From NCBI RefSeq assembly GCF_944327235.1, contig NZ_CALVHE010000001.1:1-64000 (forward strand): DNA of 64,000 nt, given 5' to 3'. The notes under the pieces were generated by a model. It was not told the DNA's origin. It was given only the letters and a program-made list of their open reading frames with translations, and made no database searches. Every line of letters begins with the position of its first letter. The first letter of the stretch is position 1. Below are positions 1,808-39,628 of the stretch, one piece after another. Made by a program: the position numbers and the translations under genes. The stretch comes from an uncultured Desulfovibrio sp. Lineage in GTDB: Bacteria; Desulfobacterota; Desulfovibrionia; Desulfovibrionales; Desulfovibrionaceae.

Positions 1808-3052
1808 TCAGGAGTCCGTCTCGTCTCCGACCCGACGCAATATCAACAGCAGGATCTCCCCAGGAACTCCCAGCCGGTAGGGGAAACCGCCCCACAGGCC
1901 GCATCCGCTGGACACGACAAGACGAGAATCCTCGTCCCCGTAGAGACCGCGCACATAACCGCCATTGAAGGCGGCCACCAGCCAGTCCACGCCCAGGATC
2001 GAACCGCCGTGCGTGTGCCCGGACAGTTGCAGCGCAACCTTGCCCCGCACGGCGTCAAAGAGGGTAGGCCGATGGGAAAGCAGGATGACGGGCAGGCGCT
2101 CCTTCGTGCCGTCCGGGCGCGCGGAGAGCGCATGGGAGTCCAAGCCGCGCGGCAGCGTGCTTTCCAGGTCCGGGCCGGGCAGGCCGAAACGGGCGGCAGC
2201 GGGATCGGTCACGCCGGACAGGACGAATTCCCTGTCCGCGTGCCTCACGATGACATGCATATTATCGAGCATCGTGATGCCCGTATGACGCAGCAGGGGC
2301 TTCCAGGCCGGATAGTCGGAGTAGTATTCATGGTTGCCCGTGCAGGCATACGTGCCCAGCGTTGACCGCAGATCGGCCAGCGGACGGATATCGTCAGCTC
2401 GCAGGGCCGGAGAACCATCCATGATGTCCCCGGTCAGCAGGATGATGTCCGGCCGGGCCGCGTTGACCCGCTGCACCAGTTCCTCAGCCCATGCACGGCT
2501 GAAGGTGCGGCTGAGATGCAGGTCGCTCAGATGCGCCAGCCGCAGACCGTCCAGTTCCGGCGGCAGAGAGCGCACGGGCAGTTCCACCTCCCGCACGGCG
2601 GGTACGCGCAGAGCCGTAGGGATGGCCACGGCAGCCAGAAGAAGAGCCAGCAGACACAAGCCCAGAGAAAGACGCCCGTCCCAGGGACGCAGACGGCTCC
2701 AGAGCCTGCCCGCACCACAACGCTCAAGCAGCCAGCAGATGCACAGCAGGGCATCCCGCCCCAGACTCAATGCGGCAAACAGCAGCACGATGCCCAACGG
2801 GATACCCGTGCCGACCTGGAACCAGCGCGGCACTTCCGGCGAATAGGAGCCGAAAAAAAGACGAAAAAATAAAAGCTTGCAGGCCCCGGCGACTGTCAGC
2901 GCGGCCAGCGGGAGCCGCAGGGAGAGGGAAAGATGCGTGCGCCACAGCACGCGCACCAGAACATACAACGTCAGCAGGAGGGAAAAGAACGTCAGCATAC
3001 GATCAGGAATATAAAAAGAGACGAAGGGAGCCGCAACTCCCTCCGTCCGCAT
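1808..3052 (-). CDS. membrane-anchored metallophosphoesterase
   Basis: A 414-residue protein. About four hydrophobic helices fill residues 15-160. A calcineurin-like phosphoesterase domain follows with all metal-binding motifs: HLSDLHL, LTGDIMDG, TGNHEYY, LLSHRP and SGHTHGG. This arrangement matches YkuE/YaeI-type phosphoesterases; the substrate is unknown. Neither candidate start (3052 or MLTFF at 2998) has a clear ribosome binding site. It follows ridA on the same strand after about 60 bases that hold a short GC-rich hairpin, so it may be partly co-transcribed with the tyrP-like gene and ridA. Confidence 0.85.
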   Translation of the reverse strand: MRTEGVAAPFVSFYIPDRMLTFFSLLLTLYVLVRVLWRTHLSLSLRLPLAALTVAGACKLLFFRLFFGSYSPEVPRWFQVGTGIPLGIVLLFAALSLGRDALLCICWLLERCGAGRLWSRLRPWDGRLSLGLCLLALLLAAVAIPTALRVPAVREVELPVRSLPPELDGLRLAHLSDLHLSRTFSRAWAEELVQRVNAARPDIILLTGDIMDGSPALRADDIRPLADLRSTLGTYACTGNHEYYSDYPAWKPLLRHTGITMLDNMHVIVRHADREFVLSGVTDPAAARFGLPGPDLESTLPRGLDSHALSARPDGTKERLPVILLSHRPTLFDAVRGKVALQLSGHTHGGSILGVDWLVAAFNGGYVRGLYGDEDSRLVVSSGCGLWGGFPYRLGVPGEILLLILRRVGDETDS

Positions 3053-3113
3053 GTCTTTTGCGTCAGATCAACGCAGAGCCTCCGCGTCAACAGGCGCGGA
3101 TGCCTCCGCTTGC

Positions 3114-3494
3114 CTAACGGGTGGCGATGGCCTCCACTTCAACCAGCGCTCCCAGCGGCAGACCGGCCACGGCCACGCAGGAACGAGCCGGGTAGGGCGC
3201 GGCAAAGTATTTCTTGTAGACCTCATTGACGGCGGGGAAGTTGGCCATATCCGTGATAAAGACGACCGTCTTCACCACGTTTTCCGTCCCAAGACCGGCT
3301 TCGGCCAACACGGCGGAAAGGTTCTTCAGGGCTTGCTCGGCCTGAGCCGCCACGTCGCCTTCCACCATTTTGCCCGTTTCGGGCACAAGGCCGATCTGGC
3401 CGGAAAAGTAGCAGGTCTCACCGGAACGGATTCCCTGACTGTAGGGACCGACAGCGGCAGGGGCCTTGGACGTGTTGATCAGTTCCTTGCTCAT
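3114..3494 (-). CDS. ridA: RidA family reactive-intermediate deaminase
   Basis: A 126-residue YjgF/YER057c/UK114 protein of normal family length. Typical motifs are APAAVGPYSQGI near the N terminus, VFITDMANFPAVNEVY, and the C-terminal PARSCVAVAGLPLGALVEVEA, which contains the arginine that binds the imine substrate. RidA hydrolyses 2-aminoacrylate and related enamines released by PLP enzymes. AGGAGAA precedes the ATG. It starts 10 bases after the aromatic amino acid permease gene and is probably translated from the same mRNA. A second, diverged paralogue lies at 53909-54298. Confidence 0.92.
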   Translation of the reverse strand: MSKELINTSKAPAAVGPYSQGIRSGETCYFSGQIGLVPETGKMVEGDVAAQAEQALKNLSAVLAEAGLGTENVVKTVVFITDMANFPAVNEVYKKYFAAPYPARSCVAVAGLPLGALVEVEAIATR

Positions 3495-3504
3495 GCGTGT
3501 TCTC

Positions 3505-4743
3505 CTATTTGAAGGCAGGCAGATAGTTCAGTACGGTCAGGGTATGGCACACCGCCACGCCGATACCGTACACCAGCAACAGAGGGATGGCCCAGCTTGC
3601 GCCGGGCATACGATACAGCGCTTCGCCTCCCTTGCGGCGACTGACATGCAGCAGCATGGCCGGGACGATGACCGACCAGATGGCCGCCGCCAGACCGGCC
3701 CAGCCGATGGCCGCCAGAAAGCCGTCCGGCCAGATGAGACCGCCCAGCATGGGAGGCAGGAAGGTCACCAGCATGGTCAGTGTACGCCCACGCCGGGAAT
3801 TGTCAAAGTTGCACAGGTCCGCCATGTAGTCGAACAGCCCGAGCCCCGCGCCGAGAAAGGATGTGGCGATGGCGAACAGGGCAAAGAATTCCAGCATCTT
3901 CTGGATGATGTACCCCAGCGAGGAGCCGGAAGCCTGCACCAGATCCCCCACGTTGCCGCCCGCCGCGATGACGGCGCGGAAGGCCTCGCGGTCCAGGATG
4001 CCGTCAGCGGCAATGATCCAGACAAGATAGCAGAGCAGGGCAATGAAGGTGCCGTTGCGCAGGCAGGCATTGATGATGCGAGGTTCCTTGCCCAGATATT
4101 TGATGAGGCTGGGCACCGAGGCATGGAAGCAGAAGGAGGTCAGATACGTGGAGACCGCGCCGAACAGGAAGATGAATTCCCCGCTGTCGGCCTGTTCCCC
4201 CCAGATATGCCCCATGTCGGCATTGCCGATCATGCCGCCCACGGAGAGGAAAAAGGTGATGATCATCCCGCCCATGAGCACCACGGAAAGCCGGTCCACC
4301 ACCTGCGAGCTCCACCAGACGCAAGCCGTCAGCAACAAGGAAAAGATGAGGCTCGTCAGCACTCGCGGCGGCGTATAGCCCCAATTGGACTGCATGGCCT
4401 GCTGCACCACCGAGCCGCCGCCGCTCACATAGGCATAGACCAGCGTATAGAGCACAAAGGCCACGGCAAGCCCGTTGATGAGGCTCCACGCCGGTCCCAG
4501 CGTCCGGTTGACCATGGTATGCAGGCTGTCGCCGGGCTCAAAGCAGAGGTTGACCTCCAGGATAGCCTGACTGGCGCGCAACATGCAGAACCAGGAAACA
4601 AAAATGACCACCAGCGACCAGTTGAACCACATGCCCGCGGAGATCATGGGCAGGCCCAGCATCCCGGCGCCGATGGCCGTACCGGCCACGACCATGGATC
4701 CCCCCATGACTTTCTGAAAATTCGGGCCAAAAAAAGAACGCAT
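3505..4743 (-). CDS. aromatic amino acid permease (TyrP/Mtr/TnaB family)
   Basis: A 412-residue integral membrane protein of the HAAAP family. It opens with the diagnostic VVAGTAIGAGMLGLPM and has about eleven hydrophobic helices. Homologues import tyrosine or tryptophan with protons; which substrate applies here cannot be read from the sequence. GAGGAGGAAAG just upstream of the ATG at 4743 fixes the start. The same frame stays open far upstream, antisense to the ettA gene, but that stretch is not permease-like. ridA follows 10 bases downstream, suggesting amino acid catabolism. Confidence 0.88.
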   Translation of the reverse strand: MRSFFGPNFQKVMGGSMVVAGTAIGAGMLGLPMISAGMWFNWSLVVIFVSWFCMLRASQAILEVNLCFEPGDSLHTMVNRTLGPAWSLINGLAVAFVLYTLVYAYVSGGGSVVQQAMQSNWGYTPPRVLTSLIFSLLLTACVWWSSQVVDRLSVVLMGGMIITFFLSVGGMIGNADMGHIWGEQADSGEFIFLFGAVSTYLTSFCFHASVPSLIKYLGKEPRIINACLRNGTFIALLCYLVWIIAADGILDREAFRAVIAAGGNVGDLVQASGSSLGYIIQKMLEFFALFAIATSFLGAGLGLFDYMADLCNFDNSRRGRTLTMLVTFLPPMLGGLIWPDGFLAAIGWAGLAAAIWSVIVPAMLLHVSRRKGGEALYRMPGASWAIPLLLVYGIGVAVCHTLTVLNYLPAFK

Positions 4744-36023: not shown

Positions 36024-37049
36024 ATGCTGCCGCATCTGCTTCGCCGCTTTTTCGCCCAGGACATCGCCATGGACCTGGGGACAGCCAATACGCTGCTGTT
36101 CACCCGCAAGCATGGCATCGTCATCAACGAGCCCTCCGTGGTCGCCGTGGATGTCCAGAAGAACACAGTGCTTGCCGTGGGGAGCGAAGCGCGGGAATAT
36201 CTGGGACGGACCCCGCAGCGTATCCGGGCCATCCGTCCCATGAAAGACGGCGTCATCGCGGACTTTGACGTGACGCGGGCCATGATCGCCTACTTTGTGC
36301 GCAAGACCATCACCGGTCTGCGCCTGGTCAAGCCGTCCATGGTCATCTGCATCCCCACCGGCATCACGCAGGTGGAGAAACGCGCCGTCATCGATTCGGC
36401 ACATCTGGCCGGTGCGCATGACGTCTCACTGGTGGAAGAGCCCATGGGCGCGGCGCTGGGAGCGGACCTTCCCGTAGGCGAGCCGCTGGGCAATATGGTG
36501 CTCGACATAGGCGGCGGCACCAGTGAGGTGGCGGTCATCACCCTGTCCGGCATCGCCGTCTCCCAGTCGGTGCGTGTGGCCGGAGACGCCATGAACATGG
36601 CCGTACAACGCTATCTTCGGGATGTCTTTCGGCTTGAAGTCGGTGAAATAACGGCAGAAAACGTCAAAAAGATCCTCGGCAACGCTGTACCGCGCCCCGA
36701 TTCTCCCCGTCTGGAGGTTTCCGGCAAGGATCTTGTGGAGGGCGCGCCCAAAGTCATCACCATCGGTGAGGGGCATATCCGCGAGGCCCTCAACGAGTGC
36801 ATACAGGCCATCGTCGGGACCGTCCTGCGGACGCTGGAACGCACTCCGCCGGAACTGGCCGCGGACATCCACCGTAACGGTCTGCTCATGGCCGGGGGCG
36901 GTTCTCTGCTCCGGGGCCTGGATCAACGCATCGCGCGTGAAACGCGCCTCAAGGTCTTTGTGGACAAGGAACCGCTGACCACAGTGCTGCGCGGGACCGC
37001 CAAGGCCATGCTGGACCGCAAGCTGTATCAACCCGTTTTCATCAACTGA
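36024..37049 (+). CDS. mreB: rod-shape determining actin homologue MreB
   Basis: A 341-residue MreB: phosphate 1 loop AMDLGTANTLLF, phosphate 2 LDIGGGTSEVAVI, adenosine motif MAGGGSLLRG, and the N-terminal basic/hydrophobic helix (LPHLLRRFF) that could bind the membrane. It directs lateral wall synthesis. The usual mreC and mreD do not follow; an inositol phosphatase gene does, after 6 bases. Confidence 0.95.
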   Translation: MLPHLLRRFFAQDIAMDLGTANTLLFTRKHGIVINEPSVVAVDVQKNTVLAVGSEAREYLGRTPQRIRAIRPMKDGVIADFDVTRAMIAYFVRKTITGLRLVKPSMVICIPTGITQVEKRAVIDSAHLAGAHDVSLVEEPMGAALGADLPVGEPLGNMVLDIGGGTSEVAVITLSGIAVSQSVRVAGDAMNMAVQRYLRDVFRLEVGEITAENVKKILGNAVPRPDSPRLEVSGKDLVEGAPKVITIGEGHIREALNECIQAIVGTVLRTLERTPPELAADIHRNGLLMAGGGSLLRGLDQRIARETRLKVFVDKEPLTTVLRGTAKAMLDRKLYQPVFIN

Positions 37050-37055
37050 CGCGCC

Positions 37056-38405
37056 ATGTACGATCTTTCCTGCAATCTGTCCGCACTTACGGACAAAGTG
37101 GAAGCGCTTGTACGCCGCAGCGGCGACATCATCCTCGAACACTGGCGGCATCCCAGCCATGTACGCCACAAGGGCCGTACCGACCTTGTCACTGAGACCG
37201 ACGAGGCCGTGGAAGCCTTTCTCGTACAGGAGCTGCAACAGATCCTGCCGCAAGCGGGCATCCTTGCCGAGGAGGGCGATTCCTTCGGACCGGGCACTGA
37301 CGGGCTGTGCTGGATCATCGACCCGGTGGACGGCACGACCAATTTCGTCCACCGCCTGCCCCATGTCGGTACTTCCGTCGCCCTCTGGGACAGAGGTGAA
37401 CCGTTGCTGGGCGTGGTCAACGTGCCCATGTTGCATGAATGCTACCGGGCCTACCGCGGCGGCGGGGCCTTCCGCAACGGCGTCCGCCTCTCGGTCAGCG
37501 GAGCGGATCAGCTCACGGACAGTCTGGTGGCCACGGGCATCCCGTATGATGTCCGTGAAGGTTTACAGCACATCATGGCACAGCTTGCCGTCATCCTGCC
37601 GCAGGTGCAGAACCTCCGGCGCATGGGGGCGGCCTCCATCGATCTGGCCTATGTGGCTTCCGGCCAGCTGGACGCTTATTTTGAAAAGGGACTCAAACCC
37701 TGGGATGTGGCGGCCGGCATACTGCTCGTCACGGAAGCCGGGGGACGGATAAGCCGCAGCGACGGCGCTCCCTACAACTTTGGAGACGAGATACTGGCTA
37801 CCAACGGTCATGTGCATGAGGCCAACGGCCGCGCAGGCTGGTCCCTCGGCATAGAGCCGCCTGACGGCCTTTATCCCGTCAGGAAAAAAACAGACAGGCG
37901 GTTCAGTCCAGCAGCGAACTTTCCAGAACGGCATGTCGCACAAGCGGAGAAAGCAGCTCCCCGCCATGCAGGGCCAGTCCCCGGAACTCCTCCCGATCCA
38001 GCAGCAGACGCGTGGCGGTATCCTCGGCCATCAGGCGCATACGGGAAGAGGCGACTCGCAGCGAAAACAGGGAAACAAAGGCCAGATCCGTGGCCGGACA
38101 GGGCGGTAACGTGCCCAGCTCGCGCAGGCGACAGTCCCCCAGCCCCAGCCGCAGGGCCAGCGCCTCGACGCTGTCCAGCAAAGATGCCCCGGCAGGAACG
38201 GGACTGCGCGCAAAAAAGTCCCAACCGTGTGGACCTGCAGCCAGCAATATGCCTTCCCGGCTCCCCACCAGCAGACAGATTTCCCTATGGACAAGCCGTT
38301 GCTCCCGCACAAGGCGCTCGGCGAGACGGCAAAAAGGACGATTACGGGCATCGACGACTTCCAGCAGGGAGTGCGCGCCCGCCAGCAAGGAACGATTCCG
38401 CATGA
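37056..38405 (+). CDS. inositol monophosphatase family protein, ORF with unusual C-terminal run-on
   Basis: Residues 1-270 are a full inositol-1-phosphatase-like domain: EEGDSFG, WIIDPVDGTTNFVH and KPWDVAAGILLVTEAGG bind metal and catalyse. The family normally ends here. This frame has no stop and continues for about 170 Pro/Arg/Ala-rich residues, antisense to the Nudix-like gene at 37903-38403. It closes with a TGA overlapping the rimI ATG (ATGA, 38402-38405). The tail looks like antisense translation, so a lost stop codon or a sequence error near 37890 is possible. Confidence 0.75.
   Translation: MYDLSCNLSALTDKVEALVRRSGDIILEHWRHPSHVRHKGRTDLVTETDEAVEAFLVQELQQILPQAGILAEEGDSFGPGTDGLCWIIDPVDGTTNFVHRLPHVGTSVALWDRGEPLLGVVNVPMLHECYRAYRGGGAFRNGVRLSVSGADQLTDSLVATGIPYDVREGLQHIMAQLAVILPQVQNLRRMGAASIDLAYVASGQLDAYFEKGLKPWDVAAGILLVTEAGGRISRSDGAPYNFGDEILATNGHVHEANGRAGWSLGIEPPDGLYPVRKKTDRRFSPAANFPERHVAQAEKAAPRHAGPVPGTPPDPAADAWRYPRPSGAYGKRRLAAKTGKQRPDPWPDRAVTCPARAGDSPPAPAAGPAPRRCPAKMPRQERDCAQKSPNRVDLQPAICLPGSPPADRFPYGQAVAPAQGARRDGKKDDYGHRRLPAGSARPPARNDSA
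37903..38403 (-). CDS. degenerate Nudix-fold protein
   Basis: A 166-residue protein resembling Nudix hydrolases of the isopentenyl-diphosphate-isomerase-like group: LLEVVDARNRPFCRLAERLV, then HREICLLVGSREGILLA. The position of the Nudix box (PVPAGASLLDSVEALALRLGL) lacks the catalytic glutamates, so it is probably inactive as a hydrolase. Codon usage and composition favour this strand over the opposite reading. AGGTG lies 7 bases before the ATG at 38403, which overlaps the rimI ATG on the other strand. Confidence 0.62.
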   Translation of the reverse strand: MRNRSLLAGAHSLLEVVDARNRPFCRLAERLVREQRLVHREICLLVGSREGILLAAGPHGWDFFARSPVPAGASLLDSVEALALRLGLGDCRLRELGTLPPCPATDLAFVSLFSLRVASSRMRLMAEDTATRLLLDREEFRGLALHGGELLSPLVRHAVLESSLLD

Positions 38406-38863
38406 ATACACCTGAGACGGGTCTGACATTTCGCCGCCTGCACGCCGAGGACGCGCAGGCCATGTTCAGTCTGGAAAAACGCTGTTTCAGCCAGCCCTGG
38501 ACAGCGGAGCAGTGCCGCGCCGCCTTCCGTCAGCCGGCCTTTGCCGCCTTCGGACTGGTGGAGACGGCGGGACTAGCGGCCTACATATCCTTTTATCACA
38601 GCGCGGATGAACTGGAAATACTCAATATCGCCGTGTCGCCGGAGCGCCGCAGGCAGGGGCTCGGACGCCGGGTACTGGGAATGGCCTTGCAAGTAGCGGG
38701 GAAAATGGGTATCAAAAAGAGTTTGCTGGAAGTGCGAGAAAGCAATATTCCAGCCATTGGCCTGTACGAAAGCTTTGATTTTCGCCCGGTGGGGCGACGC
38801 CGCAACTATTACCGAGCCCCGGACGAGGATGCCCTGATCTACGAGCGCCTCGTCAGGGCCTGA
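38402..38863 (+). CDS. rimI: ribosomal-protein-alanine N-acetyltransferase RimI
   Basis: A 153-residue GNAT acetyltransferase: FRRLHAEDAQAMFSLEKRCFSQPWT at the start, the acetyl-CoA loop VSPERRRQGLGRRVL, and LEVRESNIPAIGLYESFDFRPVGRRRNYY at the end, the RimI pattern. It acetylates the N-terminal alanine of ribosomal protein S18. The ATG overlaps the stop of the preceding plus-strand ORF (ATGA). Confidence 0.9.
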   Translation: MNTPETGLTFRRLHAEDAQAMFSLEKRCFSQPWTAEQCRAAFRQPAFAAFGLVETAGLAAYISFYHSADELEILNIAVSPERRRQGLGRRVLGMALQVAGKMGIKKSLLEVRESNIPAIGLYESFDFRPVGRRRNYYRAPDEDALIYERLVRA

Positions 38864-38875
38864 ATGGATCCCATC

Positions 38876-39628
38876 ATGCAAAAGATTATTGCCGCCAACT
38901 GGAAAATGTACAAAACCCGGGCCGAAGCTCGTGAAACGGCTGCGGCCCTAGCCCGTCGCCTGACGGAAAAACAGCCTGATGGACGCCGGGTCATCGTCTA
39001 CCCGCCGTTCACGGCCATTGCCGAGGTGGCTGCGGCCCTTGAGGGCGTGTCTTGTGCGGCTACCGGCGGTCAGGATGTCTATCCCGCCGGAGAGGGGGCT
39101 TTCACCGGTGAGATCTCCCCCCGTATGCTGCAGGATGCCGGAGCGTCCTGGGTGCTGACGGGCCATTCCGAACGCCGCCACGTCTTGTTGGAAAGTGACG
39201 AACTCGTAGGCCGCAAGACGGCTTTTGCTCTTGCTCAGGGCCTTTCCGTCATGCTCTGCATCGGAGAGACCCTTGCCGAGCGGGAAAGCGGTCAGCTGCG
39301 TGCCGTTCTGCAGCGTCAGCTCCAGGCCGGTCTGGCGGAGGTCGCTCCCGCCGACGTCAGTCGTCTGGCCGTCGCCTACGAACCGGTCTGGGCCATCGGC
39401 ACCGGCAAGGTCGCCGGGCCGGAAGAAGCGAGCGAAGCCCACGCCATCGCCCGCGAGCTGCTGCGCGAGGTCATCGGGGCGGCAGGGGAGAGCACGCCGC
39501 TGCTGTACGGCGGCAGCGTCAAGCCTGCCAATGCCGCCGGTCTTCTGGCCCTTGACAATGTGGACGGCCTTCTGGTAGGAGGCGCTTCTTTGGACGCGGA
39601 TTCTTTCGCCCAGATCATCTTTGCCTAA
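38876..39628 (+). CDS. tpiA: triosephosphate isomerase
   Basis: A 250-residue TIM barrel with NWKMYK (catalytic Lys), TGHSERR (His), AYEPVWAIGTGKVA (Glu and loop 6) and the phosphate-binding LYGGSVKPANA. It interconverts DHAP and glyceraldehyde-3-phosphate. The start at 38876 (MQKIIAANWKMYK) matches the family; an ATG at 38864 would add four residues. It starts 12 bases after rimI and precedes secG, a pairing often seen in bacteria. Confidence 0.95.
   Translation: MQKIIAANWKMYKTRAEARETAAALARRLTEKQPDGRRVIVYPPFTAIAEVAAALEGVSCAATGGQDVYPAGEGAFTGEISPRMLQDAGASWVLTGHSERRHVLLESDELVGRKTAFALAQGLSVMLCIGETLAERESGQLRAVLQRQLQAGLAEVAPADVSRLAVAYEPVWAIGTGKVAGPEEASEAHAIARELLREVIGAAGESTPLLYGGSVKPANAAGLLALDNVDGLLVGGASLDADSFAQIIFA

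Follow-up and report, generated by a model that had tools for sequence, protein, structure and literature searches.

A 17-nucleotide gap probably shifted an inositol monophosphatase gene into a frame antisense to a conserved Nudix-like gene in an uncultured Desulfovibrio

Gene content of the locus

The window, by which we mean the whole 64,000-nucleotide stretch analysed here (positions 1 to 64,000 of contig NZ_CALVHE010000001.1), belongs to a Desulfovibrio draft genome of 2.74 Mb in 155 contigs, with Candidatus Desulfovibrio gallistercoris and uncultured Desulfovibrio MAGs as the nearest named relatives. On the plus strand, an mreB-like gene (36024–37049; Pfam MreB_Mbl, 413 bits) lies upstream of a 449-codon open reading frame (37056–38405) that spans the whole inositol monophosphatase (IMPase) frame and its tail. 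Matches to Pfam Inositol_P and to relatives define a conserved part comprising codons 1–256 (37056–37823), while the reading frame, its codon score and the confidence of the structure model delimit a frameshifted tail of 193 codons (37824–38405) closing with TGA at 38403–38405. This stop overlaps the ATG of rimI (38402–38404), giving ATGA at 38402–38405; rimI itself (38402–38863) scored 106.2 bits against TIGR01575 (cut-off 86.4) and is followed by tpiA (38864–39628; Pfam TIM, 286 bits). On the minus strand, a Nudix-fold protein of 166 residues is encoded at 37903–38403 from the ATG at 38403, or one of 186 residues if the ATG further upstream in the ORF listing is taken. The long IMPase frame, the convincing 166-residue minus-strand protein and the ATGA at rimI had all been described in the first-pass annotation, and the reading frames together with the rimI match bear them out.

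The Nudix-like gene and rimI start head to head and have CATG (38401–38404) in common, so that the ribosome-binding region of each gene lies inside the coding sequence of the other; the same arrangement was seen at the related loci L062–L065, L156 and L003. Between the convergent IMPase and Nudix-like genes, the stretch 37854–37904 is predicted to form a hairpin (−21.7 kcal/mol, z −2.87) that lacks a downstream T run, and a terminator scan of this interval revealed no terminator-like site. An A7 tract noted earlier at 37884–37890 was found exactly there.

Pfam Inositol_P (PF00459) covers residues 12–243 of the phosphatase (E = 4.3e-65, 220 bits against a cut-off of 27), and identity to L062–L065 is 90–92% through residue 256. 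As in the IMPase family at large (PF00459; SuhB and IMPA1 structures), the acidic positions are kept and core residues 1–256 align with Desulfovibrionaceae orthologues at 53–92% identity: E72, D89, D92 and D217, which we take to be the conserved acidic metal-site residues, are invariant across 36 aligned sequences including that of the window. In contrast to the family, 193 foreign codons stand in place of the last residues, and the usual C-terminal end of PF00459 is absent from the window frame. The first-pass annotation had placed the end of the catalytic domain near residue 270; homology to relatives already stops at residue 256 (37823). The structure model gave pLDDT above 90 for most blocks of the core, with a last short helix at residues 254–262.

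Substitution ratios for the core, with codons carrying two or three differences omitted from both counts, were 0.06–0.10 (pN/pS) against five relatives, compared with 0.05–0.16 among the relatives themselves, and thus give no sign of long decay. Private residues numbered nine in the window core and 1, 4, 4 and 6 in the four nearest relatives. No second intact IMPase copy was found in the source genome, making the gene single-copy there. An IMPase match was missing from 17 of 36 same-genus genomes, which suggests that loss of or damage to this gene is tolerated in the genus.

The displaced end of the phosphatase gene

With MAFFT, the window could be aligned to L062, L064, L065 and L156 without interruption up to the end of codon 256 (37823), where a single clean gap of 17 nucleotides follows at 37824/37825, the exact break being uncertain by one base; L063, which was read separately, also carries the segment missing from the window. 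Beyond the gap, the +1 frame (37825–37854) reads TAAQAGPSA followed by TAG at 37852–37854 and resembles the C-termini of relatives, of which L062 ends in ...MRDLLQTAAQ... and L064 in MCDLLQTAAQACPHD, both with TAAQ at the matching place and a stop thereafter. Aligned with these ends, the old IMPase stop is not lost, as had been proposed, but still stands out of frame at 37852–37854. As 17 is not divisible by three, the frame misses this TAG as well as the next TGA (37862–37864) and continues for 193 more codons. The foreign tail reported previously therefore exists, but it starts earlier (37824, not 37880) and is longer (193 codons, not about 170).

Orthologue comparison, which the first-pass annotation had named beforehand as a possible refutation, came out as that refutation required, with the frames of orthologues closing shortly past the domain. 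The IMPases of L062–L065 (90–92% identical) and L156 (genome G068, 74% identical) stop 15–20 codons past codon 256, and a minus-strand gene follows after 31–585 intergenic bases. Among the 82 loci with an IMPase match, tail lengths could be taken from the 80 other loci that have a stop on the available contig, and there the tail beyond the equivalent of codon 256 never exceeded 42 residues (L096, Planctomycetota), compared with 193 in the window; it was at most 24 residues in 37 Desulfovibrionales-type loci, a group set by locus number (L062–L094, L110, L112, L156, L003) and not by taxonomy. One member of the 80, L112, scored −93, a best-segment artefact of a match broken inside the gene. This break, at 3001–3689 of the L112 locus in a Mailhella MAG, is perhaps another frameshift.

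An indel hiding the stop near the A7 tract had been suspected in the first-pass annotation, and the 17-nucleotide gap is an event of that kind, although about 60 bases upstream of the tract. Homopolymers are generally error-prone; nevertheless, the tract is located 30 bases beyond the old stop and 60 beyond the gap, and a change in its length cannot restore the family C-terminus, so that a lesion within the tract itself is hardly credible. An ancient tail lost in the relatives was likewise rejected, as the old C-terminus and stop remain visible out of frame.

A further alternative is an assembly or consensus error, in which the 17 nucleotides would be missing only from the MAG contig and the cells would carry a normal IMPase of the 271-residue class. 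The draft state of the genome (155 contigs), its being the only genome available and the normal constraint on the IMPase core are compatible with such an error, whereas a clean 17-nucleotide deletion outside any repeat or homopolymer would, from general knowledge, be unusual for a short-read assembly. We thus regard this explanation as unlikely, though worth keeping in mind. The searches turned up no other genome of this species, and the whole claim consequently rests on one assembly.

Selection over the antisense overlap

If selection had instead maintained the tail as a functional extension of the enzyme opposite the Nudix-like gene, a true 500-base antisense coding overlap as had been considered earlier, the 193 open codons ending precisely in ATGA at rimI would be readily understood. 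Against this, the tail was seen in none of the five close relatives, whose equivalent plus frames contain 1, 2, 2, 2 and 3 stops. The minus-strand gene gave a gap-free alignment of the window with these five relatives; L003, 48% identical in the Nudix-like protein, did not and was excluded from the substitution test. Over the 166-codon overlap, again with codons carrying two or three differences omitted from both counts, the minus frame gave pN/pS of 0.12–0.28, compared with 1.6–9.8 for the plus frame. Differences of the window fell mostly at third positions of minus-strand codons (39 of 64 against L062, 50 of 73 against L065), and since these face the second positions of plus codons, the opposite ratios of the two frames are explained. 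The proposed check of substitutions by codon position thus singles out the minus strand, and not the plus tail, as the one under selection across the compared sequences.

The tail itself scored −0.44 bits per codon, close to the −0.42 (SD 0.15) of the same antisense frame in 187 gene proxies from the source genome, while the IMPase core (0.26) and the minus-strand gene (0.13) had gene-like scores. Residues from about 272 onwards were almost all modelled with pLDDT below 50 (nearly all of 272–441), a prediction of disorder. According to a review of antisense proteins, codon usage alone is weak evidence against antisense coding (PMC7457138); the case against a coding tail is carried here by conservation and substitution patterns among the aligned loci, not by codon usage. 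Taken with the antisense-like codon score and the disordered model, they make a selected extension very improbable.

The converse proposal, that the long phosphatase is genuine and the minus-strand frame spurious, could draw on the fact that the window protein alone had no Pfam or NCBIfam match. It is scarcely conceivable in view of the purifying selection described above, of relatives of the minus-strand protein in 48 of 61 genomes (its own included), and of a confident structure model (pLDDT 90.6) matching YfcD. A profile built from a 24-member alignment retrieved YfcD (2fkb) with E = 8.7e-5, and the Foldseek match of the model to 2fkb had E = 2.1e-7. In the VIA structural comparison, 2fkb was matched with Z = 16.0 over 142 residues at 2.4 Å; further fold matches were DR0079 (2o5f, Z = 16.3) and, among the families listed, IPP isomerases (Z = 13.7–15.5). 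Pfam NUDIX was matched by five of the 24 members (best E = 4.3e-8), the window protein not being among them.

Nudix hydrolases carry the catalytic box G-x5-E-x7-R-E-U-x-E-E-x-G-U, and the window reads AGASLLDSVEALALRLGLG at this site. The box residues are not kept in the window protein, in the 24-member alignment or in the alignment with YfcD, and they are missing in nearly all genus members read. The protein is therefore probably not a classical Nudix hydrolase, judging by its residues. Its predicted Nudix fold resembles those of E. coli YfcD (2fkb), DR0079 (2o5f) and type I IPP isomerase, whereas, unlike them, the window protein and nearly all genus members read lack the catalytic R-E..E-E of the box. 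This YfcD/IDI-fold family of Desulfovibrio, kept even where IMPase was undetected, may be regarded as a candidate pseudoenzyme family.

Gene order and chance reading frames

The order of a plus-strand IMPase followed by an adjoining convergent Nudix-like gene was found in the window and 24 loci of the 82 with an IMPase match. At four loci (L072, L073, L077 and L074) the two genes apparently overlap tail to tail by 27–119 bases, with stops located mechanically. The plus-strand pairs mreB–IMPase and rimI–tpiA, which flank a single minus-strand gene (36024–39628), may constitute a conserved noncontiguous operon. Such an operon is described for S. aureus as menE-menC-MW1733-ytkD-MW1731 (PMC7154746). 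The likeness lies in plus-strand genes flanking a single minus-strand gene, as in many Desulfovibrio loci, and the difference in that the Desulfovibrio array is a candidate based on gene order.

At two D. piger loci (L071:3816–3819 and L090:3789–3792), where no Nudix-like match was found, IMPase overlaps rimI directly in an ATGA. The idea that the ATGA of the window is a remnant of this arrangement was rejected, given that the nearest relatives possess the Nudix-like gene and their IMPase ends normally. Instead, the motif arises because the second codon of rimI begins with A and the phases agree; at other loci, L062 (ATGG) among them, rimI starts differently.

The openness of the tail was compared with antisense frames of the 187 proxies, which are the longest non-overlapping ORFs and not annotated genes. 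Stretches of 165 codons were open in 4.9% of cases in the antisense phase of the tail, 5.3% in the third phase and 61% in the codon-aligned phase, the last value perhaps appearing too high because some proxies may lie on the wrong strand; at least one such stretch in the tail's phase was held by 23.5% of the proxies. Over the Nudix-like gene of the window, two of the three antisense phases are open, and G068 contains a similarly long chance frame of 263 codons in another phase. The open tail is thus uncommon but unremarkable and, with the old stop bypassed, calls for no special explanation. Nonetheless, 193 stop-free codons in this phase amount to a roughly 5% event, which counts against an accidental origin.

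Interpretation

The alignments show the gap, the old end lying out of frame, and selection acting on the minus strand rather than the tail. We consider it highly probable (roughly 0.93) that a lineage-specific 17-nucleotide deletion after codon 256 frameshifted an ordinary IMPase, and that the tail antisense to the Nudix-like gene is accidental. The deletion would shift the frame of the last IMPase codons, ribosomes would bypass the old TAG at 37852–37854 and read through the short intergenic stretch, and translation would continue over the antisense strand of the convergent gene to a chance TGA overlapping the rimI start. The product would presumably be a phosphatase whose core is mostly normal, followed by a disordered Pro/Arg-rich tail that probably contributes little or does some harm and is possibly trimmed by proteases. 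Since the gene is single-copy and its core has not decayed, the frameshift, if real, is best read as recent or tolerated. A more far-reaching scenario, in which the deletion turned the conserved noncontiguous array into one continuously translated stretch that couples rimI to the phosphatase and silences the minus-strand gene by antisense-RNA translation, appears quite improbable.

Like known frameshift or nonstop C-terminal extensions of bacterial enzymes, the window combines an indel at the 3' end and a missed stop with a low-complexity, non-homologous tail. It differs from them in that the tail runs antisense to a conserved gene over its whole length and ends on the next start codon; our literature search found nothing specific to this locus. 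What is seen here is a mutation of local extent, or a slip in the assembly, and does not represent a novel class of overlapping gene.

These findings dispose of one candidate antisense coding overlap of 500 bases. They also illustrate a route by which such overlaps may come about in a GC-rich genome, where open antisense frames are common and a small indel strikes the end of one of two convergent genes. For annotation they carry a warning, as the conserved gene on the minus strand would be suppressed by a gene caller that favours the 449-codon frame. Should the deletion prove real, the locus would provide a natural test of how much foreign sequence can be tolerated at the C-terminus of an IMPase.
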